Shown here one piece after another: positions 51,159 to 58,105 of a stretch of 64,000 nucleotides of DNA (the first letter of the stretch is position 1; every line of letters begins with the position of its first letter). Origin of the DNA: Aminobacter aganoensis (lineage in GTDB: Bacteria; Pseudomonadota; Alphaproteobacteria; Rhizobiales; Rhizobiaceae); NCBI RefSeq assembly GCF_014206975.1, contig NZ_JACHOU010000003.1, positions 1 through 64,000 of the forward strand. Reading direction: 5' to 3'. Below the pieces are notes generated by a model. That model did no database searches. It had not been told where the DNA came from and saw only the letters and a list, made by a program, of their open reading frames with translations. A program made the translations under genes and the position numbers.

Positions 51159-51185
51159 TGAACCTTTTTGCGGCCAACGACGACC
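51159..51185 (+). promoter_or_regulatory. Candidate ECF-type promoter upstream of the sigma-factor gene
   Basis: TGAACC (51159-51164), a 16-bp spacer, then CGACC (51181-51185), 33 bp before the chosen ATG. The GAAC -35 element with a CG-rich -10 is the general form of ECF-dependent promoters, which would fit autoregulation of the operon. Found by eye; weak evidence. Confidence 0.3.
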
Positions 51186-51217
51186 AAGCAGACAGGAGCC
51201 CGGCGGTTGCACCGGCC

Positions 51218-51790
51218 ATGAACATCGCATCAGACCCCATGTCCGATCGTGATCTCGTGAGCCGGGTCGCGAACGGCGACCGCGCCGCCTTGCGGCTCCT
51301 GTTCACGCGCCACCACGCACGGGTCTACCGTTTCGTGGCGCGCCAGACGGGGTCGGAAGCCATGGCGGATGACGTTGCCAATGAAGTGTTCCTGGAGTTG
51401 TGGCGCAAGGCGCCGCAGTTCGAAGGCCGTTCGGAAGTCTCGACCTGGCTGCTCGGCATCGCCCGCTTCAAGGCGCTGTCGTCGCTGCGCAAGCGCAAGG
51501 AGGACTGGCTCGACGACGACGATGCAGCCGCCGTGCCCGACGGCTCGGACACCCCGGAAGTGGTGACGATGAAGCTGGACAAGGGCGCAGCCCTGCGCCG
51601 CTTCGTCGATGCGCTGGCCGAGGAGCATCGCACCGTCATCGACCTCGCTTATTATCACGGCAAGTCGGTGACCGAGATCGGCGAGGTGCTGGACATTCCG
51701 GTGGCGACGGTGAAGACGCGGATGTTCTATGCCCGCAAGAAGCTTGGCGAAGCCTTGAAGGCCGCCGGATACGACAGGGGCTGGCCATGA
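51218..51790 (+). CDS. ECF-type RNA polymerase sigma factor
   Basis: A 190-residue sigma-70 family factor. Region 2 has [86 protein letters not shown]; region 4 has [42 protein letters not shown]. The start is uncertain: GTG 51158, ATG 51218 and ATG 51239 are all in frame, and none has well-spaced Shine-Dalgarno. ATG 51218 is chosen because it lies after the promoter-like site. Its stop overlaps the anti-sigma start (ATGA). It diverges from nhaA. Confidence 0.9.
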
Positions 51791-52449
51791 GCGCTGCCGA
51801 GAAGATGTCCCGCCGCGACGAGATCGAAACGCTGCTGCCGTTCTACCTGAACGGTACGCTGGAAGGCGCCGAACTGGCGACTGTCGAGGACTGGCTCGCC
51901 AGCGATCCGGCCGCACCCGCCGCCCTCGAGGCCGCCGAGGCAGAGTTCTCCGGCACAATGGCGTCCAACGAGGTGATCCGCCCGCCGGCCGATGCGCTGA
52001 GCCGCTTCTCCAGGATGCTCGATGCCGAAGCCGGGCCGGTGCGCGAGCCGCAGGCGCAGTCGTTGCTGTCGCGTGTCTGGGAAAGGTTCATGGGCCTGCC
52101 TGTTGGCGTCGCCTGGGGTGCGGCTGCGGCCTTGCTGGCGCTGGTCATGGTGCAGTCGGTGCTCGAACCCGGCGGCCGCGGCAACGATGTTCAGGTCGCC
52201 GGCACCGGCGAGGAGCAGTCGAAGCTGCCCTTCGCGCTGGTCACGTTCAAGCCGGATGCCAGGATGGCCGACATTGCCGCGCTGCTCGGCGACAACGGGG
52301 CGGCGATCATCGACGGCCCGACGGCAAGCGGCGTCTTCCGCGTCGCCATTCCCGCCGAGACCGTCGCCGACTACGACCGCATCGTCGGCCTGATCGCGGC
52401 GGCACCCTTCGCCGATACGGTAACGGCGGGAAGGAAGCCAGCGGGATGA
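51787..52449 (+). CDS. Membrane-anchored anti-sigma factor with protease-prodomain-like periplasmic domain
   Basis: A 220-residue protein. Residues about 1-60 form a sigma-binding region (DEIETLLPFYLNGTLEGAELATVEDWL) lacking the zinc-binding His/Cys set. One membrane helix spans about 106-124 (GVAWGAAAALLALVMVQSV). The periplasmic part has a folded-looking segment at 148-212 (FALVTFKP, then GVFRVAIP) whose strand-helix-strand pattern resembles subtilase prodomains and the segment before the catalytic domain of the next gene product. It overlaps both neighbours by ATGA, so it should hold the sigma factor until a periplasmic signal is received. Confidence 0.78.
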   Translation: MSAAEKMSRRDEIETLLPFYLNGTLEGAELATVEDWLASDPAAPAALEAAEAEFSGTMASNEVIRPPADALSRFSRMLDAEAGPVREPQAQSLLSRVWERFMGLPVGVAWGAAAALLALVMVQSVLEPGGRGNDVQVAGTGEEQSKLPFALVTFKPDARMADIAALLGDNGAAIIDGPTASGVFRVAIPAETVADYDRIVGLIAAAPFADTVTAGRKPAG

Positions 52450-53948
52450 CACTGCCGGGGCAGGTTACAGGGTTGATGCTGGCGGCGACATTGTTTGCCG
52501 CCGCGCCTGCTCTTGCCCAGACCAACGATCCCAGCCTGACGCCGCAGCAGCTGGATTGCCTCAACCGAACGACTGCCGCAACAAGCGTCGATTGCCTGCA
52601 GCCCGGCGCCGGCCCGACGCCAGGCGGCCCGGCCGATGGTAGCGGAATCCCGCCCCGGGCGGTCGGCTTGCCCGAATTGCTCGTCGACCTCTTTCCCAAT
52701 CCCGGCGACTTTCCCGGTGTCGCATCCGGCGGGCAGGCAGCTGTTCCGGTGCCGACGCCAAACCCGCTGCGCGACCCGGCCGCCGCAAGCCCCGATCCGT
52801 CTGGTGGCGGCACCCAGGCGGGCGGAACGCCGACACCGCCGCCACCTGATGTGCCTCCGCCCGGAGCGGCGATCATCGCACCGCCGCGTGCCATAGCGGG
52901 CGCCTTCGTGCCCGACGAGGTGCTGGTCACCGTTGATGGCGGTGCGCCTGTCGCCCAGGCTGTCGCTGCCGCCTATGGCCTGGAAATCCGGTCGCAGCGA
53001 CTGTCGGCCCTGCTCGGCACCAGTCTCGTCCGCTACGGCATCCCCGATGGCCGTCCGGTCGGCACGGTGCTTGCGCAGCTCGCCGGCGACGGCCGCACCA
53101 CGACACGCGAGCCCAATCACATCTACGAGTTGCAGCAGGCGGCAGCGGTGCCCAATTTCGCCTTCCAGCGTATCGCGCTCGACGAGGCCGCCGCTAATGG
53201 CGAGAACGTCAGCGTCGCGGTCATCGACACCGCCATCGACGACACCCATCCGGCGCTGAAGGGCGTTGTCGCGGGGAGCTTCGACGCCATGCCGGGGGTG
53301 ACCGTCACCGCCCGCGACCATGCCACCTCGGTCGCCGGCCTGATCGCCGGCACGGGGCCGTTCAAGGGCATGGCGCCGGGCTCGAAGATCTTCCATGCCC
53401 GCGCCTTCGAAGGCGGCAAGTCCAACATGGAGATCATTCTCAACGCGCTCGACTGGGCCGCCGAGCAGAACGTCCAGATCGTCAACATGAGCTTCGTCGG
53501 GCCCAAGAACGCGCTGCTGGAGCAGGCCAGCCGTGGCGCCCGCGCCCGCGGCATGATCTTGGTCGCTGCCGCTGGCAACAATGGTCCCGGCGCGCCCTAT
53601 GGCTACCCTGCTGCCTACAAGGGTGTCATCGCGGTGACGGCGACCGACGCCAAGGACGCGCTGATGAAGCAGGCCAATCGCGGGCCTTATGTCTACATCT
53701 CGGCCCCCGGCGTCGATCTCATGGCGCCGGTCGGCGGCGGCACCGACCTGGTGACGGGCACCTCGTTTGCCGCAGCCGTGGTCAGCGGCGCGATCGCTAA
53801 CCTGCTGCACAATGAGCCTGGGCGCTCGGCCGACTCGATCGAAAAGGCGCTCGCCGCCACGGCCACCGACCTTGGCGACAAGGGCCGCGACACCGATTTC
53901 GGTTTCGGCCTGATCAACACCAAGGCCGCCGAAGCCGCCCGGGAGTAG
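52446..53948 (+). CDS. Secreted subtilisin-like serine protease (S8 family)
   Basis: A 500-residue exported protease. The signal peptide ends near APALAQ; a long Pro/Gly-rich linker (about 55-150) precedes a prodomain-like segment (FVPDEVLVTVDG, about 154-226). The catalytic triad is complete: D261 (VAVIDTAID), H292 (RDHATSVAG) and S440 (GTSFAAAVVSG), with oxyanion N378 (AAAGNNG). It overlaps the anti-sigma stop by ATGA, so sigma, anti-sigma and protease form one coupled unit. Two Cys (38, 50) near the mature N-terminus could pair. The substrate may be a surface or secreted protein, or the anti-sigma factor itself. Confidence 0.9.
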   Translation: MTLPGQVTGLMLAATLFAAAPALAQTNDPSLTPQQLDCLNRTTAATSVDCLQPGAGPTPGGPADGSGIPPRAVGLPELLVDLFPNPGDFPGVASGGQAAVPVPTPNPLRDPAAASPDPSGGGTQAGGTPTPPPPDVPPPGAAIIAPPRAIAGAFVPDEVLVTVDGGAPVAQAVAAAYGLEIRSQRLSALLGTSLVRYGIPDGRPVGTVLAQLAGDGRTTTREPNHIYELQQAAAVPNFAFQRIALDEAAANGENVSVAVIDTAIDDTHPALKGVVAGSFDAMPGVTVTARDHATSVAGLIAGTGPFKGMAPGSKIFHARAFEGGKSNMEIILNALDWAAEQNVQIVNMSFVGPKNALLEQASRGARARGMILVAAAGNNGPGAPYGYPAAYKGVIAVTATDAKDALMKQANRGPYVYISAPGVDLMAPVGGGTDLVTGTSFAAAVVSGAIANLLHNEPGRSADSIEKALAATATDLGDKGRDTDFGFGLINTKAAEAARE

Positions 53949-54322: not shown

Positions 54323-54407
54323 TTGCATTGACAGGCAGGCCGGCTGCCATTAGGTAATGGCAACGTATCTGCCGCCTGAGCGGCGCGCATTCTCGAACGG
54401 GACCCCC

Positions 54408-55316
54408 ATGACAGCGCTACGCACCACCCTTGCCGCCATCGCCATGCTCGCGGCCATGCTCGGGCTTTCGGCCTGCTCCCAGGACAGCGAAGCCGGCGGC
54501 AAGATGAAAGTGGTGACCACTTTCACCGTCATCGCCGACATCGCCCGCAACGTCGCCGGCGACGTTGCCGAGGTGGAATCGATTACCAAGCCCAATGCCG
54601 AGATCCACAACTATCAGCCGACGCCGGGCGACATCATGCGCGCCCAGAAGGCCGACCTGGTGCTGTGGAACGGGCTGAACCTCGAGCTGTGGTTCGAGAA
54701 GTTCTTCGAAAACCTCGATGGCGTCGCGCAGGCCGTCGTCTCCGACGGGGTGACGCCGATGGGCATTGCCGAGGGCCCCTATACCGGCAAGCCCAACCCG
54801 CATGCCTGGATGTCGCCCGAGGCGGCGCTGGTCTATGTCGAGAACATCCGCAAGGCCTTCGCCGAGAAGGACCCTGCCAATGCCGAGACCTATGCCAAGA
54901 ACGCCGCCGCTTATGCGGAGAAGATCAAGGCAACGGTCGCGCCGATCCACACGGCCATCGAGACCATTCCCGAGCAGCGCCGCTGGCTCGCCACCAGCGA
55001 GGGCGCATTTTCCTACCTCGCCCGCGATTTCGGCTTGAAGGAGGTCTATCTTTGGCCGATCAATGCCGACCAGCAAGGTACGCCCCAGCAGGTGCGCAAG
55101 GTGATCGACCTCGTCAAGGCCAACGGCATCCCGGCGATGTTCAGCGAAAGCACGGTGTCGTCCAAGCCGGCCGAGCAGGTGGCGCGGGAAACCGGCGCCA
55201 AATATGGCGGCGTGCTCTATGTCGACTCGCTGAGCGACGAAGGCGGCCCGGTGCCGACCTATCTCGACCTGCTCAGCGTCACAACCCAGACCATCGTCAA
55301 GGGACTTGCCCAATGA
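54408..55316 (+). CDS. sitA: Manganese/iron ABC transporter substrate-binding protein SitA
   Basis: A 302-residue cluster-9 (TroA/SitA-type) metal-binding lipoprotein-like protein. The signal has a lipobox-like LGLSAC with C23. Metal ligands are recognisable: His in [11 protein letters not shown], His in [10 protein letters not shown], Glu in MFSESTVSS and Asp in [11 protein letters not shown], the set of Mn(II)/Fe(II)-binding proteins. ATG 54408 (MTALRTTL) gives a proper signal; an ATG 51 nt upstream adds a polar stretch. Its stop overlaps sitB by ATGA. First gene of sitABCD, preceded by a Mur-type palindrome. Confidence 0.95.
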
Positions 55317-56227
55317 ACGTGCCGCTGAAGGGCCGCCCCGCGGCCCAGGTGCAGGCCGGCGACGGCCTGAGCGTCGACAACATCTCTGTGACCTACCGCA
55401 ACGGCCACACCGCCCTGCGCAACGCTTCCTTCGCCATTCCGCGCGGCACCATCACGGCGCTGGTCGGCGTCAACGGCTCGGGCAAGTCGACCCTGTTCAA
55501 GTCGATCATGGGCTTCGTCCCGCTCGCCACCGGCAGCGTCGAGATATTGGGCCATCCCGGCCGCGAGGCGCTGAGGAAAAACCTCGTCGCCTATGTGCCG
55601 CAGAGCGAGGACGTCGACTGGAATTTTCCGGTCCTGGTCGAGGACGTGGTGATGATGGGCCGCTACGGCCACATGAACTTCCTGCGCATGACGCGCGGCA
55701 TCGATCGCGAGGCGGTGGATGCCGCGCTCGAACGCGTCGGCATGGCCGACTTCCGCAAGCGCCAGATCGGCGAGCTCTCGGGCGGTCAGAAGAAGCGCGT
55801 CTTCCTGGCGCGCGCGCTGGCGCAGGAGGGCGAGCTGATCCTGCTCGACGAACCCTTCACCGGCGTCGACGTGCGCACTGAAGAAGCGATCATCGCGCTT
55901 TTGCAGGGCCTGCGCGACGAAGGCCGGGTGATGCTGGTGTCGACCCACAATTTGGGTTCTGTGCCGCGCTTCTGCGACCGTGCCGTGCTGATCAACCGGA
56001 CCGTGCTGGCCGCCGGCCCGACCGCCGAGACCTTCACCAAGGCCAATCTGGAAAAGGCCTTCGGCGGGGTGCTGCGCCAGTTCATCCTCGGCGGCGCCGA
56101 GTTGCACCAGGATGCCGCCGACACGCGCCAGGTGACGGTGTTGACCGACGACGAACGCCCCTTCGTCATCTATGGCGACGGCGCCGAGAAGGACGCCACG
56201 GACAGGAAGGGCGGGCGCAAGAAATGA
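55313..56227 (+). CDS. sitB: Manganese/iron ABC transporter ATP-binding protein SitB
   Basis: A 304-residue ATPase with Walker [11 protein letters not shown], signature [15 protein letters not shown], Walker [13 protein letters not shown] and switch His in VSTHNLGSV. The 50-residue C-terminal extension beyond the ATPase core, including [17 protein letters not shown], is a common feature of rhizobial SitB. Start and stop overlap sitA and sitC by ATGA. It powers the SitC/SitD channel. Confidence 0.94.
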
Positions 56228-57084
56228 TCGCCACGCTCCTCGAGCCGTTCGGCTATGGCTACATGGTCAACGCCATGTGGGTGTCGGCACTGGTCGGTGG
56301 CGTCTGCGCCTTCCTCTCGGCCTATCTCATGCTCAAGGGCTGGTCGCTGATCGGCGATGCGCTCTCGCACTCCATCGTGCCGGGTGTCGCCGGCGCCTAT
56401 ATGCTCGGCCTGCCCTTCGCGCTCGGTGCCTTCCTGTCGGGCGGGCTGGCGGCCGGCGCGATGCTGTTCCTCAACCAGCGCACCAAGCTCAGGGAAGACG
56501 CCATCATCGGCCTGATCTTCACCTCCTTCTTCGGCCTCGGCCTGTTCATGATCTCGCTGTCGCCGGCCTCGGTGAACATCCAGACCATCGTGCTCGGCAA
56601 CATCTTGGCGGTGACGCCGGCCGACACGCTGCAACTGGCGCTGATCGGCGGCATTTCGCTGGTCATCCTGCTCGCCAAGTGGAAGGACCTGATGGTCGCC
56701 TTCTTCGACGAGAACCACGCGCGCTCGATCGGCCTCAACCCCGACAGGCTCAAGGTTCTGTTCTTCATGCTGCTGTCGGCCTCGACGGTGGCGGCACTCC
56801 AGACCGTCGGCGCGTTCCTGGTCATCGCCATGGTGGTGACGCCGGGCGCGACCGCCTACCTGCTCACCGACCGCTTTCCCCGGCTGATCGTCATCAGCGT
56901 TGTGATCGGCAGCGTGACCAGCTTCGTCGGCGCCTATGCGAGCTATTTTCTCGATGGGGCTACGGGCGGCATCATCGTGGTGGCGCAGACGCTGATCTTC
57001 CTCACGGCGTTCGTCTTGGCGCCCAAGCACGGCATGCTGGCGGCAAGGCGAAGGGCGCGGCAGGAGCTGGAGGCGGGGGCATGA
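56224..57084 (+). CDS. sitC: Manganese/iron ABC transporter permease SitC
   Basis: A 286-residue ABC-3 family permease with about eight helices. Typical segments are [35 protein letters not shown] and [27 protein letters not shown], the ABC-3 coupling region. It overlaps sitB by ATGA. A palindromic repeat in a 178-nt gap follows before sitD. Confidence 0.94.
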
Positions 57085-57108
57085 GCGAGTTTGTGACAGT
57101 CATCGCTG

Positions 57109-57224
57109 CCCCTCACCCTTGCCCTCTCCCCGTAATGACGGGGAGAGGGGGATCGCCGACGCTGCCGCTTCTCCCTTCTCCCCGTCCTTCACGGGGAGAA
57201 GGTGCCGGCAGGCGGATGAGGGGC
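57109..57224. repeat. Mosaic palindromic intergenic repeat, copy 4 (inside sitABCD)
   Basis: Same facing-module design as copy 1: GCCCCTCACC start, hairpin cores CTCTCCCCGT-AATG-ACGGGGAGAG and CTTCTCCCCGT-CCTTC-ACGGGGAGAAG, and GGATGAGGGGC end. It separates sitC and sitD, the only non-overlapping junction in this operon. Confidence 0.85.
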
Positions 57225-57262
57225 TTTGAAGGCCGCGTGTCTTCGCAACGCGAGGCACAGCC

Positions 57263-58105
57263 ATGATCGAAACCCTCACGCTCCCCATTGCCTTCCCCTT
57301 CATGCAGCAGGCCTTTGCCATCTCGCTCTTGGTGGCAGTGCCGATGGCGTTGTTGTCGTGTTTCCTGGTGCTGAAGGGCTGGTCGCTGATGGGCGATGCC
57401 ATCAGCCATGCGGTGCTGCCCGGCGTGGTGCTGGCCTACATCGCCGGCATCCCCCTTGCCATCGGCGCCTTCGCCGCCGGCATGACCTGCGCCCTGGCGA
57501 CCGGCTACCTCAAGCAGAACAGCCGGATCAAGGAAGACACCGTCATGGGCATCGTCTTCTCCGGCATGTTCGGGCTCGGCATCGTGCTCTACACCAAGAT
57601 CCAGACCGACGTGCATCTCGACCACATATTGTTCGGCGACATGCTGGGCGTGAGCTGGAGCGACGTCGGCCAGACCGCCGTGATCGCGCTGATCGCCACC
57701 GGGGCGATCGGCATCTTCCGTCGCGACCTGTTGCTGCATGCCTTCGACCCGCAGCACGCCCAGGCCATCGGCCTGCCGGTCAGGCTGCTGCACTACGGGC
57801 TGTTGACGATTCTGTCGCTGACCATCGTCGGGGCGCTGAAGGCGGTCGGCATCATCATCGCCATCGCCATGCTGATCGCGCCCGGCGCCATCGCCTATCT
57901 TCTCACCGACCGCTTCGAGCGCATGCTGACGGTGTCGGTGCTGGTGGCGGTGCTGTGCTCGTTCGCCGGCGTCTATCTCAGCTTCTTCATCGACAGCGCG
58001 CCGGCGCCGACAATCGTGCTTTTGATGAGCCTGACGTTTGTCGTCGCGTTCTTCGTCTCCAAGCGGCGGACCGAGCTGAAGCAGCGGCAGGTGACGGTGG
58101 AGTGA
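57263..58105 (+). CDS. sitD: Manganese/iron ABC transporter permease SitD
   Basis: A 280-residue ABC-3 permease homologous to SitC, with CFLVLKGWSLMGDAISHAVLPGVVLAYIAGIPLAIGAF and [30 protein letters not shown]. It likely forms a heterodimeric channel with SitC. ATG 57263 (MIETLTLP) fits the family start. Converges on the agl operon across copy 5 of the mosaic repeat. Confidence 0.94.
   Translation: MIETLTLPIAFPFMQQAFAISLLVAVPMALLSCFLVLKGWSLMGDAISHAVLPGVVLAYIAGIPLAIGAFAAGMTCALATGYLKQNSRIKEDTVMGIVFSGMFGLGIVLYTKIQTDVHLDHILFGDMLGVSWSDVGQTAVIALIATGAIGIFRRDLLLHAFDPQHAQAIGLPVRLLHYGLLTILSLTIVGALKAVGIIIAIAMLIAPGAIAYLLTDRFERMLTVSVLVAVLCSFAGVYLSFFIDSAPAPTIVLLMSLTFVVAFFVSKRRTELKQRQVTVE

Follow-up and report, generated by a model that had tools for sequence, protein, structure and literature searches.

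A relative of subtilase prodomains on an ECF anti-sigma factor encoded beside a subtilase in Aminobacter aganoensis, a candidate protease gauge

In the first 64,000 nucleotides of contig NZ_JACHOU010000003.1 of Aminobacter aganoensis (hereafter the window, meaning that whole stretch), a membrane-bound anti-sigma factor has a periplasmic C-terminal domain (CTD) related to the prodomains of subtilases, which act as built-in chaperones and inhibitors of these proteases. Its gene shares an operon with those for a subtilase of peptidase family S8 and for a sigma factor of the extracytoplasmic function (ECF) type. The kinship is evident at the level of protein families, and loci that encode the CTD usually also encode an S8 protease. 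Because an anti-sigma factor with a prodomain-related domain is usually encoded beside a subtilase, these results suggest that in many bacteria the protease and the prodomain-bearing anti-sigma factor act on each other directly. To our knowledge, little is understood of how bacteria gauge the activity of the proteases that they export, and the arrangement described here provides a widely conserved candidate for such a gauge. A promoter and one protein of its regulon, P0004, are predicted as well.

Kinship of the anti-sigma C-terminal domain with subtilase prodomains

The features compared are the following.
51787 to 52449, forward strand: membrane anti-sigma factor, 220 residues, with weak N-terminal family matches
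52216 to 52446, forward strand: periplasmic CTD of the anti-sigma factor, modelled as residues 144-220, a subtilase prodomain relative (Fervidolysin_NPro-like)
52446 to 53948, forward strand: S8 subtilase, predicted to be secreted, 500 residues (Pfam Peptidase_S8 at 9.4e-46, and fold search)
52905 to 53120, forward strand: S8 prodomain, residues 154-225, beta-alpha-beta-beta-alpha-beta in the AlphaFold2 model (PF22148, E 0.022)

A preliminary description of this DNA had noticed the same pattern of strands and helices in the CTD and the S8 prodomain, and AlphaFold2 models of both proteins confirm it. The CTD, modelled from a 65-row alignment with a mean predicted local distance difference test score (pLDDT) of 95.5, has strand-helix-strand-strand-helix-strand order (residues 149-154, 160-169, 173-176, 184-187, 193-205, and 209-214), which is the beta-alpha-beta-beta-alpha-beta fold of subtilisin propeptides, and the S8 model shows the same order ahead of the catalytic domain. 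When the CTD model was compared with 350,542 PDB chains using Foldseek, the prosegment of subtilisin BPN' ranked first and ranks 1, 2, and 4 were all subtilisin propeptides, so that the fold, far from being unlike a prodomain, finds its closest counterparts there; every match had an E-value of at least 0.001, a modest value that we attribute to how common ferredoxin-like folds are.

We then compared profiles of 65 anti-sigma CTDs and of 60 prodomains from adjoining S8 genes. Alignment with hhalign covered 62 columns with a probability of 82.7 % and an E-value of 9.5e-6, compared to 0.5 to 6.2 % when the anti-sigma N-terminus or any of three S8 catalytic-domain pieces was used as a control. With another choice of columns the score was 33.4, against a maximum of 18.4 among 400 column-shuffled prodomain profiles, none of which therefore reached it, and a reversed profile gave a probability of 0.7 %. 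Of the 65 CTDs, 18 matched the Pfam family PF22148 (Fervidolysin N-terminal prodomain), which was built independently of this operon, at E <= 1, with a best value of 1.4e-6; the runner-up family matched 2 of 65. At the same threshold, PF22148 matched 26 of the 60 S8 prodomains. Among ten CTDs scanned singly, that of locus L062 exceeded the Pfam cut-off (27.5 vs 21 bits), five fell under the PF22148 cut-off with E-values up to 0.09, and several had no match. The Pfam scan gave no PF22148 match for the window's own CTD and placed the window's S8 prodomain under the cut-off (15.6 bits, E 0.022), and the evidence for kinship is therefore family-level. Searched against PDB chain sequences, the CTD profile gave 11 matches up to E 10 (best 0.074), none of them to a relative of subtilases, and the S8 prodomain profile gave only a weak subtilisin-like match (9rk9_A, 0.06); the link of the CTD to solved structures thus rests on the fold search.

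Together, the hhalign comparison, the PF22148 matches, and the shuffle test show that the CTD is, at the level of the family, a relative of subtilase prodomains, and so bear out the kinship that had been proposed from inspection. Prodomains of this family lie N-terminal to an S8 catalytic domain on the same chain; the CTD instead ends a separate membrane protein. One could argue that two unrelated small alpha/beta domains merely look alike by eye, given that the window's two domains, taken alone, each fall under the Pfam cut-off and that the CTD profile retrieves no subtilase relative from PDB sequences. The Pfam matches, including one above the cut-off, and the shuffled profiles already contradict such a coincidence, and the top-ranking folds speak against it as well, so that we regard it as very improbable.

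Peptidases encoded beside the anti-sigma factor

Relatives of the anti-sigma factor were collected from three genome sets that overlap in part: 151 near genomes, 40 of which had a match at E <= 1e-3 (36 once false matches were removed); a class sample of 385 genomes, of which 28 matched at E <= 1e-6; and a phylum sample of 398 genomes, of which 48 had a match. In the latter two, scoring was limited to the best candidates of each genome. Counting each place once, and leaving out 18 re-fetched stretches, four apparent ATP-binding cassette (ABC) proteins, and genome G120, we obtained 85 loci with a CTD (L and G numbers are locus and genome labels). The ABC proteins account for weak matches in G034, G061, G068, and G074 (second place, residues 153-213), where an apparent CTD inside long proteins was rejected in favour of ABC substrate-binding proteins by eye; G120 was dropped as it lacks an anti-sigma match.

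Of the 85 CTD loci, 78 have an S8 gene on the stretch that was retrieved, compared to 3 of 30 anti-sigma loci without a CTD, some of the latter being cut by contig ends. In 67 of the 78 loci, 0 to 4 bases separate the open frames of anti-sigma factor and S8 protease, and the largest distance is 1,297 bases (frames taken stop to stop, with overlaps counted as 0); the linkage holds both within the window's class and beyond it. The S8 gene mostly follows the anti-sigma gene; it is upstream in L037, L058, and L060. L056 and L067 carry the anti-sigma gene on the opposite strand. A sigma gene adjoins the anti-sigma gene in most loci, with none found for L052, L053, and L114. Among the best 80 of 113 relatives in named genomes, nearly all from Mesorhizobium and Aminobacter, S8 was present in 78 loci and both misses were at contig ends; the closest of these relatives, at 95 % identity, are from Aminobacter anthyllidis and A. 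carboxidus. By the preliminary description, homologues mostly lacking a neighbouring subtilase would have spoken against its idea, and in both counts we find the reverse. Linkage to S8 is thus a property of the CTD and not of anti-sigma factors in general.

Four of the seven CTD loci without S8 (L065, L069, L072, and L118) encode a caspase-like peptidase of family C14, which adjoins the anti-sigma gene in L069 and L118 and is one gene away in L065 and L072. All six C14 proteins that were scanned, two of them from a C14-seeded set, matched PF00656, and the C14 motif was found in none of the 78 S8-linked and none of the 30 CTD-less loci. Of the other three, L041 is cut short 0.3 kb downstream, where its contig ends, and L052 is an orphan. 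L039 counts as a true exception, since no S8 was found in the 3 kb downstream; its contig breaks off on the upstream side. The C14-seeded search, biased by its seed, returned 17 new stretches, 16 with a CTD; 11 of these had S8, 2 had C14, and 3 (L250, L252, and L258) had neither. From these neighbourhoods we conclude that the CTD is associated with exported peptidases, mainly of family S8, and an initial idea that it is an adaptor for S8 only was dropped because of the C14 neighbours.

The C14-linked CTDs are plainly related to the S8-linked ones (98.9 % in the profile comparison). We considered a single origin for all C14-linked members; on a tree built from 80 rows of CTD plus linker, which had low resolution, few columns, and unsettled bootstrap values, the C14 label needs four changes, two of which are forced by well supported branches. 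This suggests that protease partners are exchangeable, S8 for C14, on one signalling chassis, and the exchange makes specificity testable by swaps of domain and linker.

Some further arrangements were noted among these loci. CTD anti-sigma factors paired with C14 are those of L065, L069, L072, L118, L253, and L254 (wider stretches L220-L223), and L065 and L072 each encode two CTD proteins, the second apparently without an anti-sigma domain. In L258, whose linker has the sequence ATRS, inspection by eye suggests that an upstream gene belongs to a ShlB/POTRA-like two-partner secretion system. The CTD-less L102, L107, and L125 have other C-terminal domains with S8 still near, divergent from the sigma gene in L107 and L125, and are possibly arrangements of the ECF26 type discussed below.

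Linker motifs and a proposed mechanism

Between membrane and CTD lies a short segment in which motifs recur among relatives.
52162 to 52227, forward strand: periplasmic juxtamembrane linker with VQVAG at 52189-52203, a candidate cleavage segment at the site of the relatives' [YF]x[TV][AL][SG]

After thinning of linker rows at 75 % redundancy, the motif [YF].[TV][AL][SG] was present in 28 of 66 S8-linked linkers (shuffle mean 0.6, maximum 3), in none of eight C14-linked rows, which represent six loci, and in one of six linkers with neither partner (L039, which keeps YQTAS despite no S8 having been found downstream). A looser form was present in 49 of the 66 S8-linked linkers (shuffle mean 16.9, maximum 27) and again in none of the eight. 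Conversely, TRG[AG] occurred in four of the eight C14-linked linkers (shuffle mean 0.05, maximum 1) and in 0 of 66 S8-linked ones. Subtilisins favour an aromatic residue at P4, and metacaspase-type enzymes favour arginine at P1. That linker motifs differ by peptidase class appears to give some support to an alternative raised in the preliminary description, that the anti-sigma factor is cut by the protease; we treat the motif as a lead to a candidate cleavage site and not as proof of one.

The explanation we favour, with chances that we judge to be close to even, is that a dedicated neighbouring peptidase engages the anti-sigma factor via the CTD, cuts the linker, and frees the sigma factor, the whole forming an autoregulated envelope-signalling module. 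The neighbouring peptidase, S8 in most loci and C14 in a few, would dock on the CTD as a recognition module and would cut the short linker between membrane and CTD as a dedicated first-step ('site-1') protease. This cut would start the stepwise destruction of the anti-sigma factor, and the freed sigma factor would transcribe its own operon, S8 included, together with the P0004 gene, which carries the same promoter (sites described below). If the S8 protease does cut the anti-sigma factor, a positive feedback loop would result; if the CTD captures and restrains the protease, the outcome would be homeostasis. A more specific version, in which a tethered trans-prodomain anti-sigma factor reads the state of the co-encoded subtilase into transcription and has been rewired to caspase-like peptidases via the linker motif, is possible, and we hold it only tentatively.

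Elements of the proposed module have counterparts elsewhere. In regulated intramembrane proteolysis of the RseA/DegS type, as recounted in a study on CRISPR (clustered regularly interspaced short palindromic repeats) (PMC10028731), an envelope protease makes the first cut in a membrane anti-sigma factor, which is then destroyed stepwise; here, by contrast, an S8 or C14 gene is linked and would take that role. The same source describes Csx29, a CRISPR-activated caspase-like protease that cuts the sigma inhibitor Csx30, and so a caspase-fold peptidase that is genetically linked to a sigma factor and cleaves its inhibitor. That system differs in being activated by CRISPR, and the available text mentions no prodomain-like domain (PMC10028731).

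Several observations weigh against the favoured explanation. The linker motif was seen first and then counted on the same data, and related rows inflate the counts; its strict form is present in under half of the S8-linked members, and the window's own VQVAG, with V in place of Y or F, fits the looser form only. R[GANS] is present in all eight C14-linked linkers, and shuffles equal it (mean 4.8, maximum 8). Neither an S8 nor a C14 gene is present on the stretches of L052, L039, L250, L252, and L258, and C14-linked CTDs are less prodomain-like (27.9 %). A PN segment is found in 0 of 65 CTDs vs 35 of 60 S8 prodomains. Lastly, in a mirror-tree style comparison of 59 loci, the partial rank correlation between CTD and S8 (0.09) was not above that between anti-sigma N-terminus and S8 (0.186). 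The bootstrap interval of the difference between the two was -0.30 to 0.08, and CTD-S8 distances showed no correlation beyond that explained by the sigma factor and the anti-sigma N-terminus; because the CTD is short, this test has low power.

Another explanation corresponds to the protease-homeostasis circuit of the preliminary description. In the manner of RsiV, the CTD would serve as a trans-prodomain for the mature subtilase, binding it and inhibiting or sampling it, and binding by free protease would change the stability of the anti-sigma factor, so that sigma activity follows protease level or folding. Its attraction lies in the prodomain kinship of the CTD and in the overlapping genes, and two other systems offer precedents. 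The site-1 cut of RsiV is made by signal peptidase. In the RsiV/SigV system of Bacillus subtilis, the outer domain of an ECF anti-sigma factor engages an enzyme and this engagement controls the anti-sigma factor: lysozyme is both bound and inhibited by RsiV, whose site-1 cleavage requires this binding (PMC5014341). The ligand of RsiV is lysozyme, whereas here the partner is an operon-encoded peptidase and the domain is a prodomain relative. In Plasmodium, the accessible text on SUB1-ProM places propeptide-like inhibitors, prodomain relatives on a separate protein, beside genes for subtilases (PMC6993865). These are stand-alone potent inhibitors with capping residues and a tail, whereas the CTD is membrane-tethered within an anti-sigma factor and has neither.

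In subtilisin propeptides, according to the same source, Glu and Asp/Asn residues cap two helices of the protease and a tail enters the active site (PMC6993865). This combination, characteristic of PF22148 prodomains, is not seen in the CTD: E.[DN] occurs in one of the 65 CTDs, and the tail past the last strand has a median of 4 residues (range 1 to 19). AEP stands at the EPN capping position in five CTDs (L062, L064, L066, L068, and L071), none of them in the window's order. With no PN or capping segment and a short tail, the CTD is a prodomain relative that lacks the inhibitory segment. The missing caps, the use of the same CTD with C14 enzymes, and the lack of any excess CTD-S8 coevolution speak against a simple inhibitor, and we find the receptor-inhibitor explanation rather doubtful. 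Thus, of the preliminary picture of a prodomain-like anti-sigma factor, the kinship and the subtilase neighbour stand, while the plain plug does not fare well.

Promoter sites and the exported protein P0004

A predicted promoter precedes the operon.
51159 to 51186, forward strand: ECF-type promoter-like site TGAACC-N16-CGACNA, upstream of the sigma gene, predicted by pattern search

This loose pattern had 11 matches in the genome, compared to 2 in a reversed control. The pattern GAAC[CT]T[TA]..CG[ATG]C, drawn partly from the same loci in which it was counted, precedes the sigma gene in 34 of the 85 S8-linked loci in which sufficient sequence was available ahead of that gene, compared to a mean of 0.28 and a maximum of 2 in shuffles; it was found in none of four other CTD loci and none of 22 CTD-less control loci. 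The form GAACCTTT-N13-CGAC occurs at five sites in the window's genome, compared to none in the reversed control, and one of these, at C10:151960, is followed after about 0.4 kb by the assumed start of the gene for P0004. This is a predicted exported protein of at least 631 residues whose true start is unsure (C10:152364-154256; L281:865-2757), and searches of Pfam and NCBIfam gave no match. Other predicted targets of the sigma factor are at C3:81331, C7:81281, and C2:666891.

Homologues of P0004 stand beside the triad of sigma, anti-sigma, and S8 genes in other genomes (13 open frames in 8 distinct places). Among the 151 near genomes, P0004 (E <= 1e-20) is present in 32 of 36 with the anti-sigma factor vs 11 of 115 without (Fisher 4e-19, uncorrected for kinship); in 8 of these 32 genomes its gene is no more than 5 kb from the triad. 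The promoter pattern was recovered upstream of P0004 in 21 of 27 loci with at least 400 bases upstream (shuffle maximum 3), or 21 of all 30 P0004 loci (shuffle mean 0.56). Longer homologues carry DUF11 or, by eye, cysteine-rich C-terminal parts. Most likely, P0004 is the best candidate for a client of the S8 protease, a proposal based solely on adjacency and co-occurrence.

The shared promoter and distribution of P0004 would also fit an explanation in which the subtilase is a mere output of the regulon, for example one that processes P0004, while the CTD senses another envelope ligand and its prodomain kinship reflects ancestry. The CTD fold is a common ferredoxin-like one with no Foldseek match under E 0.001, the CTD is kept where S8 is absent, and CTD-S8 coevolution is null, all of which agree with such an explanation. 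There is also a parallel in Sinorhizobium meliloti, where, in the accessible text, the serine protease gene SMa0142, divergent from the gene for the ECF26 sigma factor RpoE6 (of the RpoE6-EcfR6 pair), is activated by RpoE6 and is thus an ECF target (PMC6180224). That system shares with ours a serine protease gene linked to an ECF sigma gene; it differs in an anti-sigma C-terminal domain that is somewhat RsiW-like, with no prodomain noted in the part available, and in a promoter consensus of GGAATA/GT vs TGAACC/CGAC here (PMC6180224). Against a mere output stand the presence and tight spacing of S8 in CTD loci compared to CTD-less ones, the fact that a swap of partner still gives a peptidase, and the variation of the linker motif with peptidase class. 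We therefore consider it unlikely.

ECF sigma genes are linked to subtilases in ECF54 as well, where the accessible text reports subtilases and CHAT proteins in the genomic context and discusses control without an anti-sigma factor (PMC8999054). Among the open-access PMC titles and abstracts listed on anti-sigma factors with subtilase, propeptide, caspase, or site-1 protease, no entry reports a prodomain-like domain on an anti-sigma factor, and the words protease and peptidase are absent from the main text of a paper on ECF factors of B. japonicum (PMC3420878).

Genes of the operon and its surroundings

The remaining features of the operon are as follows.
51218 to 51790, forward strand: ECF sigma factor, 190 residues from the ATG at 51218, with an alternative start at the ATG at 51239
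52105 to 52161, forward strand: transmembrane segment of the anti-sigma factor, residues 107-125, a hydrophobic stretch by eye in a one-pass protein
53199 to 53909, forward strand: S8 catalytic domain, residues 252-488, from Pfam and the family alignment

The three genes are joined by an ATGA overlap at both junctions, with the sigma stop codon at 51788-51790 against the anti-sigma ATG at 51787 and the anti-sigma stop codon at 52447-52449 against the S8 ATG at 52446; these overlaps and coordinates had been reported before and were right on recheck. The sigma factor matches Sigma70_r2 (5.6e-17) and Sigma70_r4_2 (7.3e-12) in Pfam and exceeds the cut-off of NCBIfam NF009168/PRK12515 (287 vs 236 bits). 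For the N-terminal half of the anti-sigma factor, two NCBIfam anti-sigma models gave 2.4e-6 and 4.6e-6, each under its own cut-off, and the zf-HC2 match in Pfam was weak (0.18); its gene overlaps and directly follows the ECF sigma gene, as is typical of class I ECF anti-sigma factors.

The S8 protein begins with a signal peptide (ALA-Q, residues 22-25) and a proline-rich stretch at about residues 26-150, both recognized by eye, and the junction of its prodomain, REPNHIYELQ, lies at 53106-53135. Its Peptidase_S8 domain carries the Asp-His-Ser triad of subtilases (Asp261, His292, and Ser440; alignment columns D124, H155, and S303), which is invariant across a 58-row family alignment, and the AlphaFold2 model (pLDDT 94.6) retrieved subtilisin BPN' with Foldseek at 4.2e-26. 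Directly downstream, at 54357-58105, the window encodes an apparent ABC transporter operon of the Zn/Mn type, recognized by eye from the translations and consisting of a binding protein, an ATPase, and two permeases.

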